Assembly: GCF_000025965.1 (NCBI RefSeq)
Contig: NC_006513.1
Location: forward strand, 558,001 to 622,000
DNA: 64,000 nt
Origin: Aromatoleum aromaticum EbN1
Lineage (GTDB): Bacteria > Pseudomonadota > Gammaproteobacteria > Burkholderiales > Rhodocyclaceae
Reading direction: 5' to 3'
Shown: positions 5,329 to 38,023 of the stretch, one piece after another
How positions within the stretch are numbered: the stretch's first letter is position 1
Layout of the letters: every line of letters begins with the position of its first letter
Program-made: the position numbers and the translations under genes
The notes under the pieces: model-generated
Told to the model about the DNA's origin: nothing
Seen by the model: the letters and a program-made list of their open reading frames with translations, nothing else
The model's database searches: none

Positions 5329-5377
5329 CTTTGCACGGCAATTGATCACAACAACTTGAATACTATCGAGTTGTGTG

Positions 5378-5395
5378 TGTCGCTCCACAGCGACA
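5378..5395. promoter_or_regulatory. GlrR-type enhancer site, perfect TGTC-N10-GACA
   Basis: A perfect match to the palindrome known for enterobacterial GlrR. It is centred 165 bp upstream of the -12 element of the bactofilin sigma54 promoter and 110 bp ahead of the glrK ATG, so it may serve both divergent genes. Confidence 0.65.
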
Positions 5396-5496
5396 TAGGT
5401 GTAGCCAAAAAGCGCCAACTTGCATTTCCTTACGGACCCCGACCCCGCCCCACCCTAAACTGCGACGCCGGACTTCGAGCTATTCGCCGGCCGTCC

Positions 5497-6906
5497 ATGT
5501 CCCGCCTGTCCTTCAGTTCCACGCTGCTTGCGAGCTTTCTGCTCATCGCCGCGATCCTCGGCACCGCTGCGCTCGGCGGACTGCTGACCCTGGAAGACTT
5601 AGCGGCGCGCAGTCGGGAAGGTGCAAAGCACGCGCTCGGTTTTTCCAGCGCGCTCCAGGAACTGGGCGAACGCACGGTGGATCTGGAACGCAGCGCCCGC
5701 CAGTTTCTGGTTCTCGGCGATCCCGTCCTGCTCGAGCGGTTCGAGCAGGCGCGCGACGATTCGATGACGGCGCTGGTATGGATTGCCGGTCTTGGAAGCA
5801 CGAAATCGCAAAGACTCGTCAACCAGTGGAGCGACGCCGCTGAGCGGGTGGCCGCAGCATTGAACACTCGCGCAGGAGCCGACGTCGCGCTCCAGGCACT
5901 CGGGGAGTTGCCGGTCCTCAATGAGCAGCTCGCCGCGGAACTCCGGCTGCAGCTGGAGGCGGAGTCGAAACGGCTGCTCGACGAACTCGACGGCAATCGG
6001 GAACAGCTGGCGTGGCATCTGTTGGTCGCAGTGACAGCGGCCTTCCTGCTCGCGGCGCTCACCGGATGGTGGGTGCTGCGTCCGCTGACCAGGGTCGAAG
6101 GCGCGATCGAAGCCCTCGGCGAGAGCCGCTTCGACGAACCGGTCATCATTGGCGGGCCGGCCGACTTGCGCCGGGTCGGGCGACGACTGGACTGGCTGCG
6201 GGTACGCCTCGCCGACCTGGAAGCAAACCGCACGCGAGTCTTGCGCCATGTCTCGCACGAACTGAAAACTCCGCTCGCATCCTTGCGCGAAGGCATCGCG
6301 CTGCTCAAGGACGGCGTCGTTGGCGAGCTCACGGCCGGGCAGCACGAAGTGGTGGGCATTCTCGAACACAATACCCGCGCGCTGCAGTTGCGCATCGAAG
6401 GATTGCTGGGCTACAACGCGGCGGTGTTCGACGCCCGCAGCCTCAAGCGGCGGAAAGTGGCATTGCGACCGCTGGTCGAGGCAGTGGTCGCGGAACAGCA
6501 ATTGCAGATACAAAGCCGGAATCTTCACGTCGACATCGACGTGAACGGCAATATCCCGCCGTTGAGCGCCGACCCCGACAAGCTTCGCATCGCGCTCGCG
6601 AACCTGGTCGCGAACGCGATCTCATTCAGTCCGCACGGAGGCAAGGTCCGGCTGAAAATCGCCCGCCAGCTGCGCGACGTGACGATCGACTGCATCGATG
6701 AGGGCCCCGGCGTGCCTGAAAACGAATCCGAGCGCATCTTCGAACCTTTTTATCAAGGCAGCCGGCAGCCGGCCGCGCCGCGTCATGGCAGTGGCCTGGG
6801 GCTTTCGATCGTGCGCGAATTCATCGACGCGCACGGCGGGAAAATCGAGCTGCTGCCGACTTCCACGGGCGCCCATTTCAGGATCGCGCTTCCCAATGAA
6901 AGCTGA
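5497..6906 (+). CDS. glrK: Two-component sensor histidine kinase GlrK (QseE family)
   Basis: A 469-residue inner-membrane kinase. TM1 is about residues 8-30, followed by a helical periplasmic domain (30-165) and TM2 (about 168-192). A HAMP-like linker precedes the H box (VSHELKTPLASLREGIALL), N box (LANLVANAISFSPHGG), D/F boxes (DEGPGVPE, IFEPFYQG) and G2 box (GSGLGLSIVREF). The order kinase-lipoprotein-sigma54 regulator is diagnostic of glrK-qseG-glrR. The ATG gives a TM1-proximal start; the frame stays open 47 codons further without family similarity. In enterobacteria the system responds to envelope signals. Confidence 0.85.
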   Translation: MSRLSFSSTLLASFLLIAAILGTAALGGLLTLEDLAARSREGAKHALGFSSALQELGERTVDLERSARQFLVLGDPVLLERFEQARDDSMTALVWIAGLGSTKSQRLVNQWSDAAERVAAALNTRAGADVALQALGELPVLNEQLAAELRLQLEAESKRLLDELDGNREQLAWHLLVAVTAAFLLAALTGWWVLRPLTRVEGAIEALGESRFDEPVIIGGPADLRRVGRRLDWLRVRLADLEANRTRVLRHVSHELKTPLASLREGIALLKDGVVGELTAGQHEVVGILEHNTRALQLRIEGLLGYNAAVFDARSLKRRKVALRPLVEAVVAEQQLQIQSRNLHVDIDVNGNIPPLSADPDKLRIALANLVANAISFSPHGGKVRLKIARQLRDVTIDCIDEGPGVPENESERIFEPFYQGSRQPAAPRHGSGLGLSIVREFIDAHGGKIELLPTSTGAHFRIALPNES

Positions 6907-7548
6907 AACTGAAACGGGTCGCTCAGCCTGGTCGGTCCCGGCAACTTCTGCGGCATGGCGACCGGGGTTCGTCGCAAGGACGTTCGTGGCCTTGCTGGCC
7001 GCCGTCCTGCTGGGGGCGTGCGCGAACCTGGCTGCGCCGGGGCCGGGCGACGCCGAGCGCGCCGACCCGTCGAAGGACGGCGGCCGACGCGCAGTCGAGA
7101 GTGCGATCGAGTACTACCATTTCGTCCGCCAGCTCGAACCGGCCGAGCTGGAACGGGAACGGGACGCTCTTGCGGTCGGGGTGGGCGACCCGCTCAATCA
7201 GCTGCTCCAGGCGATGGCGCTCGCCCGCCCGCCCGGAAGCAATATTCCGCGCGCGCTGGCGCTGCTGGGAGTCGTCGACGCCTCGACACGACCCGAAGCG
7301 GTCGCGTTGCGTCCGCTGGCGTGCCTGCTCGCCGATCAGTTTGCCGAGCAGCAACGTCTCGATGCGGCGGCGCAATCCCTCACCCGGCAACTCGAACGCA
7401 CCGGCCAGCATCTCAAGGAAAGCCGCCGGCACGCCCGGCAGCTCGAGGAAAAGATCGAGGCGCTGACCGAGATCGAACGCACGCTGCCGGAGCGCCCGGC
7501 CGCCCATGCGGCACCGCCGCCGCCCCCGACGGAACGGAGGATCACGCG

Positions 7549-7552
<4 letters not shown>
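6896..7552 (+). CDS. qseG: QseG-like outer-membrane lipoprotein
   Basis: A 218-residue protein with a long basic N-region, a hydrophobic stretch and lipobox LLGAC at about residues 33-37, so it is probably lipidated and periplasm-facing. The mature part is helical and ends in a predicted coiled coil (about 150-200, Q/E/R-rich) and a proline-rich tail. It overlaps glrK by 11 nt and the glrR start codon by 4 nt (ATGA), so the three genes form one operon. In enterobacteria QseG modulates the kinase. Sequence similarity is low in this family, and the assignment rests mainly on position and lipobox. Confidence 0.7.
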
Positions 7553-8952
<1,400 letters not shown>

Positions 8953-27914: not shown

Positions 27915-27944
27915 GCGGCCCGGCCGATCGTCTTACCGCGCAAA

Positions 27945-28061: not shown

Positions 28062-29840
28062 ATGAAATCCACGTCCGACCGCAAGCAACCCCGGCGCCTC
28101 AAAGCGGCCTTCATCGGCCCATTCGCGATCGTGCTCACCTTCATCATGGGCGTGTTCCTCGTCTCCACCTACATGGTCAAGGTACGCATCCTCGACCGGG
28201 ATCTGGCCGAGCGATCGGAGGCGGTCGCCAAGCTGCTCGCCCAGAAGCTGGACAAGGAGGCAAGCCTGATGCGCGCGGTGCTGCGCGCGATGATGGGCAA
28301 CCGTGTCGTCGAATCCGCCTTCACCGCTCGGGACCGCAATGCGTTGACGCAGGAAGCAGGATCCTTGTTCCAGGTTCTGCGCGCCGACCATCTGATCACC
28401 CATTTGTATTTCATCGGCCACGACCTCGTGACCCTGCTCCGCCTGCATAGTCCCAACGAATTCGGCGACGAGATCCACCGCGCCACGATGCTGATGGCCC
28501 GTGACCGAGAGCAGACGGTGAGGGGGCTCGAACTCGGTCCGATGGGCACGCTCACGCTGAGGCTGGTCATGCCGTGGCGACAAGGCGAGCGCGTCCTCGG
28601 CTATCTCGAGATCGGGCAGGAAATCGAGCATCTGCTCGGCGAGATACGCGCCAGCCTGTCGGTGGACCTGCTCGTGCTGGTCGACAAGCGCTACCTGCTG
28701 CCGGCGCAGTGGGCGCGTGGCCTCACGCTGATGGACCGGAGCGGAGACTGGGAGCGGTTTGGCAGTCACGTGCCCATTGCGCAAACCGTCGACCAGGTTC
28801 CGCAGGCGTTGACAGCGGCACTCGCCGACGACCTGCGCTCCGGGCGGCAGGCGGAGATCGAAGACGGCGGCCGTGCGCTGCACCTGGCCATGCTGCCCCT
28901 CGAGGATGCCGGCGGAAGGCGCATTGGCGACGTGCTCGTGGTGCGCGACATCACCGAGCTGCAATCGACCTTCCGCTCGTCGATGGCGTTGGTCACCCTG
29001 CTTTGCCTGCTGGCGGCCGCCGGCGTCCTCGGCCTGTTCTATTATTCGCTCGAACGAGTCGAGCGCGACTACCGGCGGCAACACGATCTGGAGCGCCAGT
29101 TGCTGCGCATCGGCAGCGAGCATCAGCGCATGCTCCAGATCGAGAAGCTTTCGGCCCTGGGGACGATGGTGGGGGGCGTTGCCCACCAATTGAACAATCC
29201 GCTCGTCGGTGTGGTGAACATGGCCCAGCTGGCCACGCGCGAAGTGGAAGACCCGGAGCGTACGCGCGAACTGCTGGGCGAGATTCGCCGCGCCGGGGAA
29301 GATTGCCGGACTCTCGTCCGCCGCATGCTGGAGTTTTCCAAAGTCTCATCGTTCGAAAGCAAGCGCGTCCCGATGGCGCCGCTCATCGAGGAGACGGTCC
29401 TGCTCTTCCGCCAGACGGGAAGTCACCGCATGCCGGTCGACATCGAGCTTCCCGATCAGTCGGTGGTGCTGCGGGTCGACCCGATCCTGATCCGTCACGC
29501 GTTGTTCAACCTCCTGCTCAATGCCGCGCAGGCCACCGCCAATGATGCCGCCATCACCATTGCGCTCGAACGCGAGACCAACACGGCCAGCGGGGCGCCG
29601 GGCTGGTCCTTGTCGGTCAGCGACCGGGGCACGGGTATCGCTCGCGAGCTCATTGACAAGGTCTTCGAGCCCTTCTTCACGACGCGTGCCGAAGGCACGG
29701 GCCTCGGTTTGCCGGTGGTGCAGCACGTGGCCTTGATGCATGAGGGACAGGTGACCGTCAGCGCACGGGAGGGTGGTGGCACGCGTTTTGCGCTCTGGCT
29801 GCACGAACCCGAGGTGGAGAGTGCCAGTGATGTTGCCTAA
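28062..29840 (+). CDS. Sensor histidine kinase with dCache-type periplasmic domain
   Basis: A 592-residue membrane kinase. TM1 is about residues 14-38. The periplasmic sensor (about 40-305) has the dCache_3 pattern (THLYFIGHDLVTLLRLH, then RGLELGPMGTLTLRLV and GYLEIGQEIEHL). TM2 is about 307-328. The H box GGVAHQLNNPLVG carries His375, followed by NLLLNAAQA, DRGTGIA, FEPFFTT and GTGLGLPVVQHV. The NtrB-like transmitter pairs with the overlapping sigma54 regulator (11-nt overlap). The ligand is unknown; position suggests it senses the substrate of the downstream molybdoenzyme. Confidence 0.87.
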   Translation: MKSTSDRKQPRRLKAAFIGPFAIVLTFIMGVFLVSTYMVKVRILDRDLAERSEAVAKLLAQKLDKEASLMRAVLRAMMGNRVVESAFTARDRNALTQEAGSLFQVLRADHLITHLYFIGHDLVTLLRLHSPNEFGDEIHRATMLMARDREQTVRGLELGPMGTLTLRLVMPWRQGERVLGYLEIGQEIEHLLGEIRASLSVDLLVLVDKRYLLPAQWARGLTLMDRSGDWERFGSHVPIAQTVDQVPQALTAALADDLRSGRQAEIEDGGRALHLAMLPLEDAGGRRIGDVLVVRDITELQSTFRSSMALVTLLCLLAAAGVLGLFYYSLERVERDYRRQHDLERQLLRIGSEHQRMLQIEKLSALGTMVGGVAHQLNNPLVGVVNMAQLATREVEDPERTRELLGEIRRAGEDCRTLVRRMLEFSKVSSFESKRVPMAPLIEETVLLFRQTGSHRMPVDIELPDQSVVLRVDPILIRHALFNLLLNAAQATANDAAITIALERETNTASGAPGWSLSVSDRGTGIARELIDKVFEPFFTTRAEGTGLGLPVVQHVALMHEGQVTVSAREGGGTRFALWLHEPEVESASDVA

Positions 29841-31209
29841 ACTCCTCGTGGTCGATGACGACCACTACACGCGCACGCTCATCAGGCGCCTGCTGGACAA
29901 GTCGGCGGAAGTGCACGTGGCCGCCGACGGTGCCGAGGCGCGCCGTCGATTCGCCGCGGAGGACTTCAACCTGGTGTTGATGGACCAGTGCCTGCCTGCG
30001 GACAACGGCCTCGAGCTGCTGCGGGAGTTCCGCGCGCAGCGGCCGAAGATGGTCGCGATCCTCATCACCGGCTTCGCCGACGTGCGCGACGCGGTGGCGG
30101 CGGTACGCGAGGGTCTGTTCGACTACCTGACCAAGCCCTTCGAGGATCTCGAAGCCCTCGAGGCGGTGATCGGCAAGGCCCTCGAGATGGACGGCGCCTA
30201 CCGCGAGATCGACGTCCTGCGGACTCGCCTGGCGGCGGAAGCCGGCGCTCCGGTGATTGTCGGCGGGTCGCCGGCGATGGAGCGGCTGCTCGCTCAAGTC
30301 CGCCAGGTGGCGGGGCTCGACACCACGGTCTTGCTGGAGGGAGAAAGCGGAACCGGCAAGGACGTCATCGCCAAGCTCATGCATGCCTGGAGCGGTCGAA
30401 GCGCACGACCGTTTCTCGAGCTCAATTGCGGCGGGCTGCCGGAGACCTTGCTGGAGAGCCTGCTCTTCGGCTACGAGAAAGGGGCCTTCACCGGCGCCAC
30501 CCAGGCCACCACCGGCTACTTCGAGAAGGCCCATGGCGGCAACCTGTTTCTCGACGAGATTGCCGACATGAGCCCCAAGCTGCAGAGCAGCCTGTTGCGC
30601 GTGCTGCAGGACCACACCTTCACCCGCATCGGCAGCACCCAGCCGCGCCCCACCGATTTTCGCCTCATCTGTGCCACCAACCGCCCCCTCGCCGCCGAAG
30701 TCAAGGCCGGCCGCTTCCGCGAGGACCTGTATTTCCGCATCAACGTGATACCGGTACGGCTGCCTCCGCTGCGCGAGCGCGACGGCGACGTCATTCGCCT
30801 CGCCGTCCATTTTCTCGATCATTTCAACGCCAAGTTCGGCAAGCAGTGCGGCCCCTTTTCGCCGGCGGCGGTGCGGGCGATGGAAACCTGCAGCTGGCGG
30901 GGCAACGTGCGCCAACTGCAGCATTGCGTCGAGCGTCTCGTCGCACTGCATCCCGGCGGGCCGATCGACTTCCTGCACCTTTGCCCGGGCTGCGACCAAG
31001 GGGGCGACCGCCGCGCGTCCAACTGCACCGCTTCCGGTAAAGCGATACCGCTGGGCTACCAGGACGCTCGCGCCGAGTTCGAGCGCGATTATCTGCGCAG
31101 CCTGTTCGATTCGGCGGGCGGCAACATGTCCGAAGCGGCTCGCCTGAGCGGTATCCCGCGGCAGAATCTGTATGTGCGCATGAAGCGCTGGGGCTATGTC
31201 ACTGAATAA
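29830..31209 (+). CDS. Sigma54-dependent response regulator of the respiratory module
   Basis: A 459-residue NtrC-family activator. The receiver has acceptor Asp52 (VLMDQCLPADNG). The AAA+ domain has Walker A GESGTGKD at 171-178 and GAFTGA at 218-223, so sigma54 contact is intact. The C-terminal Fis-type HTH is GNMSEAARLSGIPRQNLYVRMKRW. Between the AAA+ domain and the HTH lies a cysteine trio, Cys385-x2-Cys388-x10-Cys399, unusual for the family. It is translationally coupled to the kinase. A TGTC-N10-GACA palindrome covers its stop codon, and a sigma54 promoter lies just downstream. Confidence 0.88.
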   Translation: MLPKLLVVDDDHYTRTLIRRLLDKSAEVHVAADGAEARRRFAAEDFNLVLMDQCLPADNGLELLREFRAQRPKMVAILITGFADVRDAVAAVREGLFDYLTKPFEDLEALEAVIGKALEMDGAYREIDVLRTRLAAEAGAPVIVGGSPAMERLLAQVRQVAGLDTTVLLEGESGTGKDVIAKLMHAWSGRSARPFLELNCGGLPETLLESLLFGYEKGAFTGATQATTGYFEKAHGGNLFLDEIADMSPKLQSSLLRVLQDHTFTRIGSTQPRPTDFRLICATNRPLAAEVKAGRFREDLYFRINVIPVRLPPLRERDGDVIRLAVHFLDHFNAKFGKQCGPFSPAAVRAMETCSWRGNVRQLQHCVERLVALHPGGPIDFLHLCPGCDQGGDRRASNCTASGKAIPLGYQDARAEFERDYLRSLFDSAGGNMSEAARLSGIPRQNLYVRMKRWGYVTE

Positions 31210-31214
31210 CGACA
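31197..31214. promoter_or_regulatory. Enhancer-type palindrome TGTC-N10-GACA ahead of the respiratory genes
   Basis: A perfect palindrome straddling the stop codon of the sigma54 regulator, centred 97 bp upstream of the -12 element of the downstream promoter. It is the same motif as the GlrR-type sites elsewhere in the window. The bound protein could be the adjacent regulator or GlrR. Confidence 0.6.
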
Positions 31215-31255
31215 GCTGACTTATTCCAATGACACGGCACCTGCCGATGTAAAGC

Positions 31256-31268
31256 CATCAAACCTTTG
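31256..31268 (+). promoter_or_regulatory. IHF-like site between enhancer and sigma54 promoter
   Basis: CATCAAACCTTTG matches WATCAA-N4-TTR at every position but the first. Its centre is about 40 bp upstream of the -12 element, the same spacing as the IHF site ahead of the BON gene. Confidence 0.55.
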
Positions 31269-31288
31269 AACAACAAGGCATTGCACTT

Positions 31289-31304
31289 TGGCATGAGGCT
31301 TGCT
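31289..31304 (+). promoter_or_regulatory. Sigma54 (-24/-12) promoter of the respiratory operon
   Basis: TGGCATGAGGCTTGCT differs from TGGCACG-N4-TTGCW at a single fixed position and keeps exact spacing. Predicted start is about 31315, some 27 bp ahead of the haem-protein ATG, which is preceded by GAGGGAGAA. Confidence 0.82.
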
Positions 31305-31341
31305 GTTCTCTCGATACTACATTCCGTCGAGGGAGAACTTC

Positions 31342-32631
31342 ATGAACAAGAGTGCGTTGATTCTCAGCTGTGCCGTGCTGGTTGCCGGTGCTGCTTCCGC
31401 TGCCGATCCCGCCACCATCGACTGGTCCAAGATTCCCGCGGTCAAGGTGCCGCTGTTCTATCCCGGCCAGTCCTCATATGAGTGGCTGCGCAGCGCCGAT
31501 CACAAGAAGGCGCAAAAGGAAACCATCGAGGGTCAGGCCTGTATCTCCTGTCACAAGAACGAAGAGAAGGCCCTGGGCGAGAAACTGGTCAAGGGCGGCG
31601 ATCTCGAGCCGATGCCGGTCAAGGGCAAGAACGGTTTCCTGGAGCTCTCCGTCCAAGCCGCCTACGACGCCAAGAACGCGTACTTCCGCTACCAGTGGAA
31701 GACCAACGGCAAGGCCGGCATCGAATATCCCTACTACCGCTTCGACGGCAAGGCATGGAAGGTTCACGGCGGACCGCGCCTCGACCAAGCCGTTCAGGAC
31801 GGCCAGCAGCCGGCCATCTATGAAGACCGCCTGTCGATGATGGTGGACGACGGCAAGGTGCCGATGTTCGCCCAGCAGGGTTGCTGGCTGAGCTGCCACG
31901 AAGGCGAGCGCGACCTGAATGCCGCCACCAAGGAAGAAGCGGCGGACAACGGTCTCCTGAAGGCGATCAAGAAGACCGACGTGCGCAAGTATCTGCCGGC
32001 CAGCCGCAGCGATCCGCAGGATTGGACGACCGGCAAGTCGCCCGACGAAATCGCCAGGATCAAGACCGCGGGCGGCTTCGTCGATCTCATCCAGTGGCGT
32101 GCCCACCGCACCAATCCGGTCAGCATGGCCGACGACGGCTACGTGCTCGAATACCGCAACTTCGACGCCGGCAAGAACGCGTTCGCCTCCAACATGGACG
32201 GCACCACGAAGCAACCCAAGTTCATGTTCGACACAGCAAAGTTCGGTGCCCGGGCAGTGGCCGTGGCCGACCTCGGCAAGAAGGACCACTTCCTGATCAA
32301 GGGGGCGAATGCCGTTCCCTTCGATCCGAACGCGGGCTGGAAAGAGGGTGACCTGCTGCCGCGCTATGTGCTGAGCGCAGCCGAAGCCGCCGGTTCGGGC
32401 GCCGACAACAAGGCCAGCGGGAGCTGGAACAACGGCGTGTGGACGGTGGTGCTGGTGCGGCCGTTGAACCTCGCCAACGACGACGACAAGGCCTTCGCCG
32501 AGGGCAAGGTGTACAACGTCGGCTTTGCCGTCCATGACGACAACATCACGACGCGTGGCCACCAGGTCTCCTTCGTCAGGACCGTCGGCATCGGCACCAA
32601 GGCCGACATCCAGGCCGTCAAGCTTCCGTAA
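31342..32631 (+). CDS. Periplasmic haem-binding protein, ethylbenzene-dehydrogenase gamma-type domain
   Basis: A 429-residue exported protein (signal peptide 1-20, ASA/ADP). The body resembles the cytochrome c-552/DMSO-reductase-like haem-binding (EB_dh) family: FRYQWKT...GIEYPYYRFDGKAW, and the C-terminal WTVVLVRPLN plus NVGFAVHDDN block. It has one canonical haem c motif, Cys67-x2-Cys70-His71 (CISCH), and an atypical Cys181-x3-Cys185-His186 (CWLSCH). It is therefore likely an electron carrier or docking subunit in the periplasm. It is the first gene after the sigma54 promoter and precedes the NapC-type cytochrome. Family membership is by pattern recall; a redox role is inferred. Confidence 0.8.
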   Translation: MNKSALILSCAVLVAGAASAADPATIDWSKIPAVKVPLFYPGQSSYEWLRSADHKKAQKETIEGQACISCHKNEEKALGEKLVKGGDLEPMPVKGKNGFLELSVQAAYDAKNAYFRYQWKTNGKAGIEYPYYRFDGKAWKVHGGPRLDQAVQDGQQPAIYEDRLSMMVDDGKVPMFAQQGCWLSCHEGERDLNAATKEEAADNGLLKAIKKTDVRKYLPASRSDPQDWTTGKSPDEIARIKTAGGFVDLIQWRAHRTNPVSMADDGYVLEYRNFDAGKNAFASNMDGTTKQPKFMFDTAKFGARAVAVADLGKKDHFLIKGANAVPFDPNAGWKEGDLLPRYVLSAAEAAGSGADNKASGSWNNGVWTVVLVRPLNLANDDDKAFAEGKVYNVGFAVHDDNITTRGHQVSFVRTVGIGTKADIQAVKLP

Positions 32632-32638
32632 CCCGAGC

Positions 32639-32667
32639 GCGCCCGACCGTCCGACGCGGTCGGGCGC
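32639..32667 (+). terminator. Strong intra-operon hairpin after the haem-protein gene
   Basis: A perfect 11-bp GC-rich stem (32639-32649 pairs with 32657-32667, 7-nt loop) starts 8 bp past the stop codon and is followed only by ATTCCG. It could attenuate transcription or protect the upstream mRNA 3' end, giving more haem protein than downstream subunits. Confidence 0.55.
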
Positions 32668-32680
32668 ATTCCGTGGCCCT

Positions 32681-32715
32681 GAGTAACCGTCGCGGCCACC
32701 CCAAGACGGTTACTC
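32681..32715 (+). repeat. Hairpin repeat, copy A
   Basis: A perfect 11-bp stem (32681-32691 pairs with 32705-32715) encloses a 13-nt loop containing GGCCACCCCAA. The same loop core recurs in copies B and C. Copy B keeps the stem with different bases, so the structure is conserved. Further GC-rich inverted repeats fill the rest of the 206-bp gap to the NapC gene. Confidence 0.6.
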
Positions 32716-32837
32716 GCCTCCGCCGGGGCGAGGCGGGGGTTCCCGGAGCACCGCTCCGTGCCAGCCGAACGGGCTGGCTGCGCAAGGCCAGCCCTCCAGA
32801 GCATAGCGATGGGGCACACACGACGGGGAGATCTACC

Positions 32838-33446
32838 GTGCAGCTTTCGAAATACATGACGCCCCGCAACCTGAAGATTGCAGGCGCGATCGCCGTGGTG
32901 GCGGTGCTGGGCTGGTGCTTGGCATTCGAAACCGTGACGCGCAAGGTCGTGGCGGTCGATGCGGTCTGCACCGCGTGCCATCTGCCGTGGGAATTCGCCT
33001 CGACGGCACGCTTGTCGGCGACCAAACCGCACCCCGCGACGCCGGAGGGCGGGCAGGCCGCCTGTGTCGATTGCCACCTGCCCGCGGGATTCCTCAACTC
33101 CGCCAACGCCTGGTTTCATTTCGTCAGCCTGACCGATCTCTTCGGCCACTTCCGGGACATCGACGGCGAGCGCAAGGGCGAGTACGTCACGATGCGCGCC
33201 AAGACCGCCTATCGGGTGCGCGACCGGTTGCATGAGTCGGACAGCAGTACCTGTCGCAACTGCCATGTCGAAAGCGAGATCAAGCCCAAGCGCGAGCGCG
33301 GCATCAACGCCCACCAACTTGCGCTCGACGAGAAGAAAACCTGTATCGAGTGTCACTACAACCTGGTCCACCGCAGCGTCGATCTGAAGAAGAGCGCCGC
33401 GGCCGGCGGCGAGGCGGACGCGCCCGAGGCGAGGAGCGAAAAATGA
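32838..33446 (+). CDS. NapC/NirT-type membrane-anchored tetrahaem cytochrome c
   Basis: A 202-residue quinol-oxidising cytochrome. A single N-terminal anchor lies at about residues 12-30. Four CxxCH motifs are at Cys44 (CTACH), Cys76 (CVDCH), Cys139 (CRNCH) and Cys169 (CIECH), matching the family's four haems and length. The GTG start has GGGGAG 8 bases upstream; an ATG six codons later is the alternative. It normally passes electrons from quinol to a periplasmic reductase. The last codons overlap the Fe-S subunit start (ATGA), so the two are co-translated. Confidence 0.9.
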   Translation: MQLSKYMTPRNLKIAGAIAVVAVLGWCLAFETVTRKVVAVDAVCTACHLPWEFASTARLSATKPHPATPEGGQAACVDCHLPAGFLNSANAWFHFVSLTDLFGHFRDIDGERKGEYVTMRAKTAYRVRDRLHESDSSTCRNCHVESEIKPKRERGINAHQLALDEKKTCIECHYNLVHRSVDLKKSAAAGGEADAPEARSEK

Positions 33447-34210
33447 GCGACGCACACGACGACCAACCTAACGGACGCCGCAAGTTCGTCACGGCCCTGG
33501 CCGCAGGCGCGACAGCGACCGCGGTGGCTTTGACGGCCAGGGCCAAGCCCGAGGACCGGGGCGCGGCCAGCGAAGGAAAGGCCATCCAGTACGGCATGCT
33601 GATCGATGTGCGTCGCTGCATCGGTTGCCATTCCTGCACCGTCGCCTGCAAGAGCGAGCACGACGTGCCGGCCGGGGTGAACCGCAGCTGGGTCGAGTAC
33701 GTGGAGAAGGGCGAATATCCGAACGTCGCCCGCAGTTTCCTGCCGCGGCTGTGCAACCACTGCTCGGTCCCGCAGTGCGTTAGCGTGTGCCCGACGGGCG
33801 CCACTTACAAGCGCCCGGAGGATGGCGTGGTGGTCGTCGACTCCGGGGTCTGCATCGGCTGCAAGTACTGCATCCAGGCCTGCCCTTACGACGCGCGCTT
33901 TCTCAATCCTCATACCGGCTTTGCCGACAAGTGCGATTTCTGTATCGGCCGCGTGACCAACGGGCTGGTACCGGCCTGCGTCGAGACCTGCATCGGCGGC
34001 GCGCGCATCTTCGGCGAAGTGAGTGACCCTGACAGCACGATCTCCCGGCTGATCGCGAAAAATCCCGTCACCGTGTTGCGGCGGGAGATGGGAACCATGC
34101 CCAACGTGTATTACATCGGCGCGGACCACTCCGACGAGAGCGACGCCCGTCGCCCGGAGGTGCGCTATGTCCGCGTCACGACCCACCGCCCGCAGCTCAA
34201 GAGGAGATGA
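33443..34210 (+). CDS. Tat-exported four-[4Fe-4S] ferredoxin subunit (TtrB/PhsB/PsrB type)
   Basis: A 255-residue electron-transfer subunit. The Tat signal GRRKFVTALAAGAT is at residues 11-24. Sixteen cysteines form four clusters: 59/62/65/69, 104/107/112/116, 137/140/143/147 and 164/167/179/183. This is the beta subunit of molybdopterin oxidoreductases that pair with an NrfD-type membrane protein; TtrB of tetrathionate reductase also carries a Tat signal. It lies between the NapC gene (4-nt overlap) and the NrfD gene (4-bp gap). Confidence 0.92.
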   Translation: MSDAHDDQPNGRRKFVTALAAGATATAVALTARAKPEDRGAASEGKAIQYGMLIDVRRCIGCHSCTVACKSEHDVPAGVNRSWVEYVEKGEYPNVARSFLPRLCNHCSVPQCVSVCPTGATYKRPEDGVVVVDSGVCIGCKYCIQACPYDARFLNPHTGFADKCDFCIGRVTNGLVPACVETCIGGARIFGEVSDPDSTISRLIAKNPVTVLRREMGTMPNVYYIGADHSDESDARRPEVRYVRVTTHRPQLKRR

Positions 34211-34214
34211 GGCC

Positions 34215-35153
34215 ATGGAAGCGGAACTGACCTGGGGTTTGCCCGTCATCGCCTATCTCTTCATGGCGGGCGCGGGAGCCGGCGCGGTGGTGGTATCGGC
34301 GTCGGTGTTGTTGCGCGGCGGCGGTTTCGGCCCGTCGCGGGAGGCGGTGGCCCGCTACGGGGCGCTCATCGGCCCCTTGCCGGTGATCCTCGGCACCGCG
34401 CTGATCGTGTTCGAGCTCGGTGCGCCGTTTCGCGCGTTCAATCTGTTCAAGGTGATCAACCTGTCGCCGATGTCGATCGGCTCGTGGCTGCTCGGCCTGT
34501 TCATGGTGCTGAGCACACTCTATGCCGCGACCTTTCTCACCCCCGAACGCTGGCGCTGGGCGCGAACGGCCAAGATCGCGCTCGCCTGGATCTGCGTGCC
34601 CATCGGAATCGGCGTGGCGGTCTATACCGGGGTGATGATCGGCGCCATGCCGTCGCGGCCGTTCTGGAATTCACCCATCATCGCCTTCCTGTTCCTGCTG
34701 TCGGCGCTGTCGGCCGGGGTGGCGGCGATCGTGCTGACGATGACCTTGGCGCGCCGGCGCAGCGACGATCACGAGGTGGAACGCGATTTCGAGAACACCT
34801 CCTACCTGCTGACCGCTTCGGATGCCGTCCTGCTCGCCGGCGAACTGATCATCATCTTCCTGTTCATCATGTTCGCCCACCTGACCATCGGCAGCACCAA
34901 GGAGGCGGTGAAAGTCATCCTCTCCGGCGGCCCGCTCGCCACGGCATTCTGGGGCATCGTGGTGGCGCTGGGCATCGTCCTGCCGCTGCTCGTGGAACTG
35001 AAGCTCGTCATGCCGCGGCTGCTGTACAGCCAGGAATTCCGCTCCCATCGCGCATTCGATGTGGCCTTGCCGGTGGCGATCCTCGTCGGCGGTTTCTCGC
35101 TGCGCTACATCGTCGTCGTCGCCGGTCAGATCACCGGCCCGGTCGGACTCTGA
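34215..35153 (+). CDS. NrfD/PsrC-type polytopic membrane subunit
   Basis: A 312-residue integral membrane protein with about eight hydrophobic helices, beginning WGLPVIAYLFMAGAGAGAVV, the usual NrfD start, with FELGAPFRAFNLF and AEL/ELIIIF helices that carry quinone-site acidic residues in relatives. It anchors the Fe-S and catalytic subunits and exchanges electrons with the quinone pool. The ATG has GAGGAGATGA upstream. Hairpin repeat B begins at its stop codon. Direction of electron flow cannot be read. Confidence 0.9.
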   Translation: MEAELTWGLPVIAYLFMAGAGAGAVVVSASVLLRGGGFGPSREAVARYGALIGPLPVILGTALIVFELGAPFRAFNLFKVINLSPMSIGSWLLGLFMVLSTLYAATFLTPERWRWARTAKIALAWICVPIGIGVAVYTGVMIGAMPSRPFWNSPIIAFLFLLSALSAGVAAIVLTMTLARRRSDDHEVERDFENTSYLLTASDAVLLAGELIIIFLFIMFAHLTIGSTKEAVKVILSGGPLATAFWGIVVALGIVLPLLVELKLVMPRLLYSQEFRSHRAFDVALPVAILVGGFSLRYIVVVAGQITGPVGL

Positions 35154-35188
35154 GCAGCTGTCGCCGGGCCGCCCCAAGACAGATGCTC
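35152..35188 (+). repeat. Hairpin repeat, copy B
   Basis: An 11-bp stem with one mismatch (35152-35162 with 35178-35188) encloses GCCGGGCCGCCCCAA. The stem bases differ from copy A but still pair. It starts within the stop codon of the NrfD gene and is followed by a GC-rich CCCCC/GGGGG inverted repeat in the 93-bp gap to the catalytic-subunit gene. Confidence 0.6.
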
Positions 35189-35246
35189 GCCCCCGCGGGG
35201 GGTGGGCGCGGAGCGACGGGGGGCTCGCCTATATGAGGGGTAAGTC

Positions 35247-37769
35247 ATGATCAGCCGTAGAAACTTCTTCCGTGCTGGCGCCGGCCTGGCCGCGTCGCTC
35301 GCCGCCGCGCCGGGGGTCCACGCCCACGACGCCGAACTCAAGCCGGGAGGCGCTGCCTACTCGGCCTGGAGCGGTGTCCAGTACAAGGGCGTGCCCACCG
35401 TGTGCACGCTGTGTGTCAGCCGCTGCCCAGCCATCGCCTACACCGACGACGGTCGCCTCGCCAAGATGGGTGGCAACCCGCAGTCGATCCGCACCGGCGG
35501 CCGCCTGTGCGCCCGCGGCCAAGCGGCGGTCGAACAGGTCTACGATCCCGATCGCATCCTCTATCCGATGAAGCGCAGCGGTCCGCGGGGCTCGGGCCAG
35601 TGGCAGCGCGTCAGCTGGGACGTGGCGATGGGCGAACTGGCCGGGCTGCTCAAGAGCCTGCGCGATGAGGGTGTGCCGGAGCGCTTCGTGGTGCAGCACG
35701 GCTGGCTGTCGGCCGGCACCCGGCGCCTGCTCGAAGAGGTGTTCATGCCGGCCTACGGCTCCGCCTCCCTGGCCGGGCCCGAATCCTTGGGTCGCCGCGC
35801 GCGGCTGGCGGCGCACCGTCTGACCTGGGGTGGCGCCCCCGACCATTGGGATCTGGAAAACGCGCGCTACATCCTGAACTTCGGCAGCAACCTCCTCGAG
35901 GCGCACACCAATTACGTCGCGTTGGCCCGACGGTTCTCCGACAACGCGGTGGACAACCGCGTCAAGATGGTGACCTTCGACGTGCGCCTGTCGAATACCG
36001 CGGCCCGCTCCGATGAATGGCTGCCCATCCGGCCCGGCACCGATCTGGCCGTGGCGCTGGCGATGTGCCATGTCGTGATGGAAAAGGATCTCTACCGCGG
36101 CGAAGGCGAACGCTTCCTCGAATATTGCCGGGTGACGCCGCAGGTCGATGCGTCGGTCGCCGACAAGGTGGCCGCGCTCAAGGCGCACCTCGCTGACTTC
36201 ACCCCCGAGTGGGCGGAGGGTATCAGCGGCGTCCCGGCCGCCCGCATCGAAGCGACTGCAGTCGCCTTTGCCTCCACCCGGCCGGCGTGCGTGATCAGTC
36301 AGCGCGGCGCCTCGGCCCATCACAACGGGGTCGATGCTGAACGCGCCCTGCAGATGTTGGCGGCCCTGACCGGAAATGTGGACGTGGCCGGCAGCCGAGC
36401 CCAGGGCGTGATGCCCCGCTGGGTAACGCCGCGCGTCGATCCTGAGACGCTGCCCAGGCGGCTGGCCGCGCTCGACGGACCCGCCGGCGCTGCCGTGTTG
36501 CCCTTCGACGGCGTCGGCCATCTGGCCCTCGGTGCCGCCAAGGACCAGGCCGGCCCGGCCGTGCTGATGTGGATCGGGCACAATCCGGCCTATGCCAACG
36601 GCAATACGGCGGAGACCGTCGCGCTGCTCAAGGATGAAAAGGCCTTGCCCCACACCGTGGCGGTCACGCCCTTCTACGACGAGACCGCGGCGCTGGCCGA
36701 CCTCATCCTGCCGGATACCACCTTCCTCGAAAGCTGGGACATCGAAGAGGGCGTGTCGGCGAACCAGATCGCGGAGTTCGCGATCCGCCAGCCCGCCATC
36801 GAGCCCATGGGGGAGGCGCGGGACGTCAAGGACGTGCTGTGCGAACTGGCGGCAATGATGGGGATCAGCCTGCCGGTGCGCTCCGGCGCCAAATTCGTCG
36901 AAGAAGCATGCAGGCAGACTCCCGATGTCAAGACCAAGGCCCGGGGCCTGGCCGGCATGAAGAAGGCTGGCGTGTGGAGCGACAAGAGCGCCACTCCCGC
37001 TTTCGGCGCCTACCTCGTCCCTGTGGCCGAAGAGGAACTCGGCCAGCCCGCGGTGCTGCTGGACGACGCCAGCGGCGTGTACTGGAACTGGCGGCTGGCA
37101 GGCGCGGCGAGCGAAGCAGAGGCGCGAAGCAACGGCTATTCGGGTACCGCCGGCGCGTGGCGCGGCTACGCCGCGCAGAAGCTCGGCGGCGCGGCAGTGG
37201 CGGGCTTTCGCCCCTACGGCGTCAACAAGTCCGGCCTGTTCGAGCTCTATTCGACCGTACTGGCAGCCAAGGGGCTGCCGCCGCTACCTGTCTGGAGCGC
37301 CATTCCGGAGCATCAGGAATTGGGCGACGACAAGCTGGTGTTGGTCACCTTCAAGGTCAACGTCCACGCCCAGGGGCGCAGTCAGAACGCCCGCTGGCTC
37401 GACGAGATCCAGCACGACACTGCTGCCTGGCTCAATCCGGCGACCGCCGCCGTCCGTGACATCCGTGACGGCGATCGCATCCGCATCGGATCGGCGCTCG
37501 GCGACATTGTCGTCACCGCCCGTGTCACCCACTCCATCGCGCCGGGCGTGGTCGCCCTGCCGGCGCATGGCGGCCATCGCGAATACGGCCGCTTTGCGTC
37601 GGGCAAGCGCACGCCGACAGGGGTGGACGATGTCAAGCTCGACGGACAGCGTTGGTGGAAGAGCGCCGGGAGCAACGCCAACGACATCATTCCGAAAAGC
37701 GCCGAGCCGGTGTCCGGACAGCAGAGATGGATGGACACGGTCGTCACGGTCACCAAGGCGAGTGCTTGA
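35247..37769 (+). CDS. Tat-exported molybdopterin oxidoreductase, catalytic subunit of unknown specificity
   Basis: An 840-residue DMSO-reductase-superfamily enzyme. The Tat signal is MISRRNFFRAGAGLA. The N-terminal Fe-S motif is Cys53-x2-Cys56-x3-Cys60-x27-Cys88. Then come WDLENARYILNFGSN (about 201-215), RPGTDLAVALAM, and the C-terminal pterin-binding domain with the HAQGRSQNARWLDEI and GDRIRI blocks. In TtrA/PsrA/PhsA relatives the Mo ligand is a Cys after the SLC-like motif; here the corresponding stretch reads GPESLGRRARL (about 178-187), with Gly182 apparently in that place. It is the last gene of the order haem protein-NapC-B-C-A. Tetrathionate, thiosulfate, polysulfide, selenate or another substrate are all possible. 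Confidence 0.88.
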   Translation: MISRRNFFRAGAGLAASLAAAPGVHAHDAELKPGGAAYSAWSGVQYKGVPTVCTLCVSRCPAIAYTDDGRLAKMGGNPQSIRTGGRLCARGQAAVEQVYDPDRILYPMKRSGPRGSGQWQRVSWDVAMGELAGLLKSLRDEGVPERFVVQHGWLSAGTRRLLEEVFMPAYGSASLAGPESLGRRARLAAHRLTWGGAPDHWDLENARYILNFGSNLLEAHTNYVALARRFSDNAVDNRVKMVTFDVRLSNTAARSDEWLPIRPGTDLAVALAMCHVVMEKDLYRGEGERFLEYCRVTPQVDASVADKVAALKAHLADFTPEWAEGISGVPAARIEATAVAFASTRPACVISQRGASAHHNGVDAERALQMLAALTGNVDVAGSRAQGVMPRWVTPRVDPETLPRRLAALDGPAGAAVLPFDGVGHLALGAAKDQAGPAVLMWIGHNPAYANGNTAETVALLKDEKALPHTVAVTPFYDETAALADLILPDTTFLESWDIEEGVSANQIAEFAIRQPAIEPMGEARDVKDVLCELAAMMGISLPVRSGAKFVEEACRQTPDVKTKARGLAGMKKAGVWSDKSATPAFGAYLVPVAEEELGQPAVLLDDASGVYWNWRLAGAASEAEARSNGYSGTAGAWRGYAAQKLGGAAVAGFRPYGVNKSGLFELYSTVLAAKGLPPLPVWSAIPEHQELGDDKLVLVTFKVNVHAQGRSQNARWLDEIQHDTAAWLNPATAAVRDIRDGDRIRIGSALGDIVVTARVTHSIAPGVVALPAHGGHREYGRFASGKRTPTGVDDVKLDGQRWWKSAGSNANDIIPKSAEPVSGQQRWMDTVVTVTKASA

Positions 37770-37970: not shown

Positions 37971-38023
37971 TTCCCCTGACCCTGGGGGGCGGGCCGCCGC
38001 ATAGCGGCAACCCTTGGGGGCGA

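Follow-up and report, generated by a model that had tools for sequence, protein, structure and literature searches.

Several of the closest described systems belong to the chalcogen and arsenic oxyanion branch of the Mo-bisPGD oxidoreductases, in which Mo is ligated by a Cys residue. The ttr genes follow the order BCA (PMC2500031), namely Fe-S subunit, NrfD subunit and Mo subunit. According to the same publication, ArrAB is coupled by CymA, a NapC family protein, in Shewanella and by the PsrC-like ArrC in a proposal made for other organisms; couplers of the NapC and NrfD types are thus known alternatives for one enzyme class. That publication also described, in 2008, the 'Unk' clade (unkBCA), which lies outside both the Arr/Arx and the Psr/Phs groups, has the gene order FeS-NrfD-Mo and a Tat start on its A protein and, as stated in a figure legend, contains a conserved Mo-ligand Cys. 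AioA and IdrA have no amino acid ligand to Mo (PMC10100899; PMC3758308), the Mo of AioA not being coordinated by the protein (PMC3758308), and the reactions reported in these sources for ligand-free Mo enzymes are arsenite oxidation and iodate reduction. QrcABCD and alternative complex III combine cytochromes with Fe-S, NrfD and Mo-like proteins, the last of these (QrcB, ActB) being cofactor-free and devoid of the ligand Cys. The portions of the open-licence literature accessible to us describe neither a ligand-less relative of the protein presented below nor its gene combination; PMC6620896 and PMC10654088, in their accessible parts, deal with Soe-like and Fe(II)-oxidation proteins and not with this operon.

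The locus analyzed here lies in the window, by which we mean the whole 64,000-nucleotide stretch of Aromatoleum aromaticum EbN1 DNA under study, and consists of seven co-directional plus-strand genes at 28062-37769, all intact and without internal stops, exactly the consecutive genes and protein types that the initial annotation had listed. Their content also agrees with its reading of a sigma54-linked respiratory module having two quinone-linked parts (NapC and NrfD) plus a haem carrier. Four features described below went beyond that annotation: the second haem motif of the EB_dh protein, the sigma54 site, the absence of the Mo-ligand Cys and the limits of the cassette. A membrane histidine kinase (HK, 28062-29840) carries a dCache_3 sensor domain (Pfam, 52 bits), HisKA and HATPase_c, and its gene overlaps by a few bases that of an NtrC-type, sigma54-dependent response regulator (RR, about 29830-31209) with Response_reg, Sigma54_activat (223 bits) and HTH_8 domains. 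The dCache_3 domain suggests that the kinase responds to a small external signal; its relatives in loci L076, L086 and L099, which give 996, 1000 and 965 bits with the kinase profile, also precede an RR gene. (Of note, the window contains a further HK/RR pair at 5356-8952, the RR open reading frame of which scores 515 bits with the profile of the cassette regulator). Then follow an EB_dh-domain cytochrome with a signal-like N-terminus (31342-32631; PF09459, 241 bits), a tetrahaem cytochrome of the NapC/NirT type (32838-33446; PF03264 or Cytochrom_NNT, 95 bits, four CXXCH motifs, GTG start) and, overlapping the latter gene by a few bases, a TtrB/PsrB/DsrO-like Fe-S subunit with exactly 16 Cys (33443-34210; Fer4_11, 106 bits, twin-arginine start). 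The last two genes encode an NrfD/PsrC-type membrane quinone subunit (34215-35153; PF03916, 152 bits) and a catalytic subunit of the Mo-bisPGD family (35247-37769), which has a twin-arginine start, an N-terminal 4Fe-4S Cys set, Molybdopterin and Molydop_binding domains and, where the Mo-ligating Cys would be expected, a Gly residue. For the cassette genes, those of RR and NapC included, start codons and Tat signals were assigned by inspection.

Because its two haem motifs, CXXCH and CX3CH, are invariant in the 13 aligned sequences, that of the window included, the EB_dh protein is probably a c-type cytochrome with two haems and not, like the gamma subunit of type II enzymes, a haem b protein. 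A phmmer search with this protein gave no PDB match at E<=1, and an AlphaFold model built from the 13-row alignment was discarded for its low pLDDT of 40.8.

The initial annotation had not recognized the combination as a named system, a view borne out for the systems tested: no NCBIfam score of the catalytic subunit reaches its cut-off, and this subunit does not fall inside a characterized clade with the same accessory genes, as evaluated with trees (PhsA, PsrA, ArrA and ArxA) and with profiles (PhsA, ArrA, TtrA, DmsA, the type II alpha subfamily, EbdA and QrcB). It is placed apart from both the ArrA/ArxA and the Psr/Phs branch and close to the 'Unk' group of BCA order, itself largely uncharacterized. 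With the NCBIfam PhsA model it scores 308.6 bits against a cut-off of 694, and PhsA/PsrA have the Mo-ligand Cys where the window protein has Gly182. The cassette shares with TtrBCA the order FeS-NrfD-Mo, and TtrB is the top NCBIfam model for its Fe-S subunit, but the scores remain at 241 of 416 bits for TtrB and 118 of 1750 for TtrA (compared by profile, the tree having no TtrA sequence), and the cassette adds NapC and EB_dh proteins. The difference from ArrA/ArxA lies in a score of 182 of 1600 bits with ArrA and in the absence of the ligand Cys; ArxA and ArrA pair with each other, apart from it, in the tree (SH-aLRT 100, with ArrA represented by a partial sequence and both on long branches). 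Searching 114 genomes with the ArrA profile NF041714 gave one weak locus with no useful alignment, which was set aside. From gene order and tree position, rather than shared accessions, we infer that the cassette enzyme belongs to the same clade as 'Unk', from which it differs by the Gly at the ligand position and the additional NapC and EB_dh genes.

Other systems share single features with the cassette. A lack of amino acid ligand to Mo would be common to AioA and IdrA, as judged for the cassette from sequence, but AioA works with a Rieske partner and contains a 3Fe-4S site (PMC3758308) whereas the cassette has a four-Cys set, the 16-Cys Fe-S subunit and NrfD. The seven cassette genes give no match to a Rieske family; the 25 families with a match to the window protein do not include arsenite_ox_L, which gives 32 of 359 bits with the related protein of L086. 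The Fe-S subunit exceeds the cut-off of DsrO (210 of 200 bits), though TtrB scores higher, but the DsrP score is only 51 of 350 bits and no match to DsrM, DsrK or DsrJ appears for the seven genes in the lists shown. None of the type II DMSO reductase models (EbdABC, SerABC, PcrAB) is passed, with 146 of 985 bits for alpha, 166 of 481 for beta and 35 of 170 for gamma, the last obtained by the EB_dh protein with TIGR03477. The tetrahaem protein, despite its Cytochrom_NNT domain, passes no NCBIfam cut-off for NapC, TorC or NrfH.

In all five PDB alignments printed (ArrA, PsrA, FdhA, acetylene hydratase and NapA), Gly182 of the window protein stands opposite the ligand Cys. The surrounding loop reads GPESLGRRARL, versus NHTS[IV]CEGGKW or a close variant in near relatives, and belongs to a rebuilt active-site segment encoded by codons 152-187 (35700-35807, plus strand), where W153, S155, P178, G182 and R186 replace the R, K, H, C and K of Cys-type relatives. 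Among 103 aligned Mo proteins, the ligand position is occupied by Cys in 81, Gly in 15 (12 distinct loci once three duplicates are removed), Ser in three and His, Gln, Met or a gap in one each; since the relatives were drawn from the best 80 of 355, these proportions apply to near relatives only. All Gly, His and Gln rows retained in the tree, 13 in number, group together as a single clade. Its SH-aLRT support is 99 in a quick tree of 98 rows and its bootstrap/SH-aLRT support 100/99 in a careful tree of 36 of these rows computed with a mixture model, the loop columns having been left out of both trees. The quick tree contains the 103 Mo proteins minus 12, plus seven references; the rows omitted were duplicates of one genome, partial, or distant or second copies (L038, L057, L059, L060, the second of L091, L119, L123, the first of L135, L138, L143, the second of L144, and L150). 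It has long branches for DmsA, ArrA, PhsA, PsrA, L053, L056 and ArxA, so that deep relations among families are unsure, and it has no named SrdA, SrrA, SerA or SoeA, its rows L158 and L159 being only Soe-like by their large B gene and lack of a twin-arginine start; the careful tree contains no named reference. The protein of L082, with Ser at the ligand position, is sister to the Cys-less clade (support 97 in the quick tree, 83/93 in the careful tree), of which the window protein is the most diverged member (end branch 0.92). The Cys is also missing in a partial protein of genome G583 (L060) and in a later-found protein of G776 (L185), giving a total of 14 genomes.

Ser at the ligand position was observed in three Mo subunits, namely L056:9941-12352, L082:9983-12523 and L122:1057-3534, of which those of L056 and L122 are placed away from the Cys-less clade. 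A stop codon or selenocysteine at this position was also considered and rejected, no stop being present there wherever a protein had its motif printed; for L029, which lacks such a printout, the flagged stop falls ahead of the N-terminal Cys region.

With its Mo-coordinating Cys missing and its pocket altered, the Mo subunit is unlikely to be plainly a thiosulfate, polysulfide, arsenate or tetrathionate reductase. We consider it very unlikely that the cassette encodes an ordinary quinol-linked reductase of chalcogen or arsenic oxyanions of the Ttr/Psr/Arr kind in which the sequence oddity is unimportant. The ttr-like BCA order (as given in PMC2500031) is consistent with such an enzyme. The same is true of the top score of the Fe-S subunit with TtrB, albeit below cut-off, and of the fold of the Mo subunit, which is closest to ArrA in a PDB comparison of 50 rows; these include no QrcB or ActB chain, an absence that we do not count against a resemblance to those two proteins. 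However, the loss of Cys is a clade character found in 14 genomes on a supported branch, and the window residues aligned to the Arg, His, Cys and Lys pocket positions of ArrA, which we take to be Arg165, His189, Cys193 and Lys198, are all changed. Could another residue then have taken over the coordination of Mo? A Cys lies two places ahead of the old ligand position in 11 of the 13 clade members, where the window protein has Ser180, and might make the protein an unusual Cys/Ser enzyme. Yet the loop in Cys-less proteins has the same length as in Cys-type relatives, so that such a shift would need a rearrangement, and the L099 protein has Gly at both places; this possibility thus appears to us quite unlikely.

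A different alternative is that the cofactor itself has been lost, the Mo-like subunit forming with the Fe-S and NrfD subunits a cytochrome c:quinone oxidoreductase fed by NapC and EB_dh, in the manner of Qrc or alternative complex III. The ligand Cys and the pocket residues have indeed been lost together, cofactor-free and ligand-less relatives do exist in QrcB and ActB, and cytochromes plus NrfD accompany every testable member of the clade, as they do in QrcABCD and alternative complex III (table in PMC8076601). The scores with the QrcB model point both ways: 204 of 440 bits for clade member L086, slightly above the 177 of the Cys-type L092, but 176 of 440 for the window protein, like that Cys-type relative. 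Among 69 Cys-type relatives, 173 columns show at least 97% conservation; the Cys-less majority retains 151 of them and the window protein 144, the latter with extra losses at residues 421-440 (5 of 6 columns). Nine of the 22 columns lost by the majority sit within residues 151-187 (in their commonest change Y151H, R153W, K155S, H178N/Q, T179S, C182G, E183Q, K186R and W187, the window protein differing at some), while the other 13 are scattered, which speaks against the relay. Moreover, 71 columns are conserved family-wide, that is, across nine distant references and twelve Cys-type relatives; 67 of these are kept in the window protein and 63 in at least 12 of the 13 Cys-less rows, versus 48, 55 and 55 in three QrcB proteins over the curated cut-off (39 in each of two QrcB-like proteins below it). 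Only His178 and Cys182 are lost in all 13 rows. Arg711 and Gly808 are each kept in seven of the 13, a point that for Arg711 favours the cofactor-less relay, even if this residue is present in the window protein; the predicted structure of the Mo subunit is weakest at 705-721, the N-terminus aside. The Fe-S Cys set is retained in the Cys-less clade. Given that nearly all family-wide columns are kept, compared with fewer in QrcB, the pattern would favour a bound cofactor with a rebuilt substrate site over a dead subunit, and we regard the cofactor-less relay as unlikely.

The accessory genes were counted in rows where the contig reaches far enough, which include several near-identical metagenome-assembled genomes and, for some loci, two Mo rows. 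By this count, an upstream NapC gene accompanies all 11 testable Cys-less rows but only 9 of the 48 Cys-type rows; for EB_dh the figures are 8 of 9 versus 14 of 38, and for NrfD 12 of 12 versus 34 of 61. No EB_dh gene was seen in the stretch of L099 that was read; G776, found afterwards, has its Cys-less protein in the arrangement EBdh-NapC-FeS-NrfD-Mo. The nine NapC-bearing Cys-type rows correspond to L083 and eight members of one gammaproteobacterial group with the order EBdh-NapC-FeS-NrfD-Mo followed by a second FeS(-Mo); since NapC also occurs with Cys-type proteins, the accessory genes either predate the loss of Cys or were exchanged. The clusters of this group (L089, L095, L100, L128, L131, L133 and L136, with that of L101 truncated) keep the Cys in the Mo subunits of both the first set and the second FeS-Mo pair, and five of them have HK and RR genes beyond that pair. 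Among other Cys-type relatives, those in Nitrospirae and delta-type metagenome-assembled genomes (L105, L108, L113, L115, L116, L120, L121, L132 and L134) lie near cytochromes with 8 and 10/11 haems, and L046 has a 10-haem protein with a NapC-type N-terminus and no NrfD detected.

Within the Cys-less clade, G528 and G566, two genomes of one genus, have an EB_dh gene followed by genes for a decahaem cytochrome and an MtrB_PioB porin (L077:2865-13696 and L161:1918-5182), the porin match in G528 reaching 424 bits against 23. The contig of G566 ends there, while in G528 (L077) the conduit genes lead directly to NapC-FeS-NrfD-Mo and to a further NapC-type gene, which has three CXXCH motifs, an arrangement that would link the Mo respiratory complex to an outer-membrane electron conduit. 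This resembles MtoAB-CymA and PioAB, from which the cassette differs in that MtrB turned up in just two of the 13 Cys-less genomes that were examined, neither of them the window genome, while G583, which is 88% complete, was also negative; extracellular electron transfer was consequently rejected as a general core function.

The seven genes form one unit of gain or loss, because two congeners lack exactly this block of 10.1 kb and the gene order recurs elsewhere. In blastn comparisons, the match of the window to the congeners G709 and G656 stops at 27925/27915 and resumes at 38016/38051, so that the segment 27926-38015 is absent between the same flanking genes (algC and alaS, from a reading of their translations), which in these genomes are 93 and 183 bp apart; the flanks in G709 are about 92-93% identical in DNA to the window. 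Other DNA occupies the place of the cassette in G643 and G679 of the same family, and the GC content of the cassette equals that of its surroundings. Gain of the cassette is likelier than repeated loss. The complete order HK-RR-EBdh-NapC-FeS-NrfD-Mo occurs in two other proteobacterial loci (L076 and L086) and EBdh-NapC-FeS-NrfD-Mo in five more loci of the same clade (L073, L074, L075, L139 and the later-found L190). The combination is thus not confined to the window genome and recurs in Alpha- and Gammaproteobacteria.

The Cys-less lineage is small, rare and scattered among proteobacteria. In a sample of 101 genomes of the family, 16 have any relative at 1e-60, only the window genome has the window-type protein, and the other matches listed are at most 40% identical to it. 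Seventeen of 369 genomes of the class have a relative at 1e-60, the Cys-less type being present in one besides the window genome (G528), while G293 has a Ser-type protein outside the Cys-less clade. In the class of L086, five of 385 genomes have a relative at 1e-150, of the Cys-less kind in two, G715 (holding L086) and G776. The window genome also contains a second FeS-NrfD-Mo cluster (L048:9830-18021, within C1:3804413-3824400) with divergent HK and sigma54 regulator genes, the Mo subunit of which is 39% identical to that of the cassette and keeps the Cys; a cluster of the same type lies near ars genes on a plasmid of Azoarcus KH32C (L037).

A near-consensus sigma54 -24/-12 promoter-like site, TGGCATGAGGCTTGCT (31289-31304, plus strand), scores 12/12 in the scheme applied and lies 37 bp ahead of the EB_dh start codon. 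Sites scoring 11-12/12 are present in all four loci having an adjacent regulator (window, L076, L086 and L099), versus a best score of at most 8/12 in all five loci without one; in L190, where no regulator was seen, the best upstream score is 9/12. The adjacent regulator is missing in five of nine testable Cys-less members. Control by sigma54 is proposed because of the position and recurrence of the site, assessed with mononucleotide shuffles, not because of pattern counts: the window has 64 two-mismatch matches to the plain pattern versus 68.6 expected, so that the pattern alone is not evidence, and three other sites in the window score 11 or 12. An exact match to TGGCAC-N5-TTGC is found at 29777-29791, inside the HK gene and just ahead of the RR start.

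The explanation we prefer, to which the sequence data would give about an even chance, is that the cassette encodes a sigma54-controlled respiratory module around a periplasmic Mo-bisPGD oxidoreductase with no protein ligand to Mo. The cofactor would still be bound and catalytic, with the two pterins as sole ligands of Mo, a situation like that of arsenite oxidase AioA but of separate origin. The Fe-S subunit would link Mo to quinone via NrfD, and NapC with the dihaem EB_dh cytochrome may provide a further electron path connecting the quinone pool to the periplasm, the cassette carrying both coupler types. Electrons from quinol could then enter by NrfD-FeS as well as by NapC-EB_dh to reduce, in the periplasm, an oxyanion or oxo substrate whose potential is fairly high, while a small molecule sensed by the dCache kinase would set expression. 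The initial annotation had allowed for electron entry by one route and exit by the other as well as for two routes that feed one acceptor. NrfD is compatible with either electron direction and the association with MtrAB could fit either; in our judgement, the reductase direction is somewhat more probable than the reverse, in which an oxidase would reduce quinone via NrfD and NapC/EB_dh would carry electrons on.

It may be, at slightly less than even probability, that Mo-bisPGD enzymes free of protein ligand arose a second time, independently and inside the Cys-ligated chalcogen/arsenic oxyanion branch, within a new respiratory complex wired twice to quinone (by NrfD and by NapC) through a dihaem EB_dh cytochrome and, in one genus, plugged into an MtrAB conduit. 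In its accessible part, the superfamily survey of PMC10100899 presents AioA and IdrA as the MopB enzymes in which the cofactor persists although no amino acid ligates it; this survey inspected sequences for the expected ligand, and the Cys-less group may thus have escaped notice. Provided that the cofactor is bound, the clade would form a naturally occurring comparison set of closely related proteins that have or lack the ligand (about 50% identity, on one branch), in which the role of the ligand in potential and substrate choice would be directly testable. The finding also brings to light a respiratory operon which related genomes either carry or lack as a whole.
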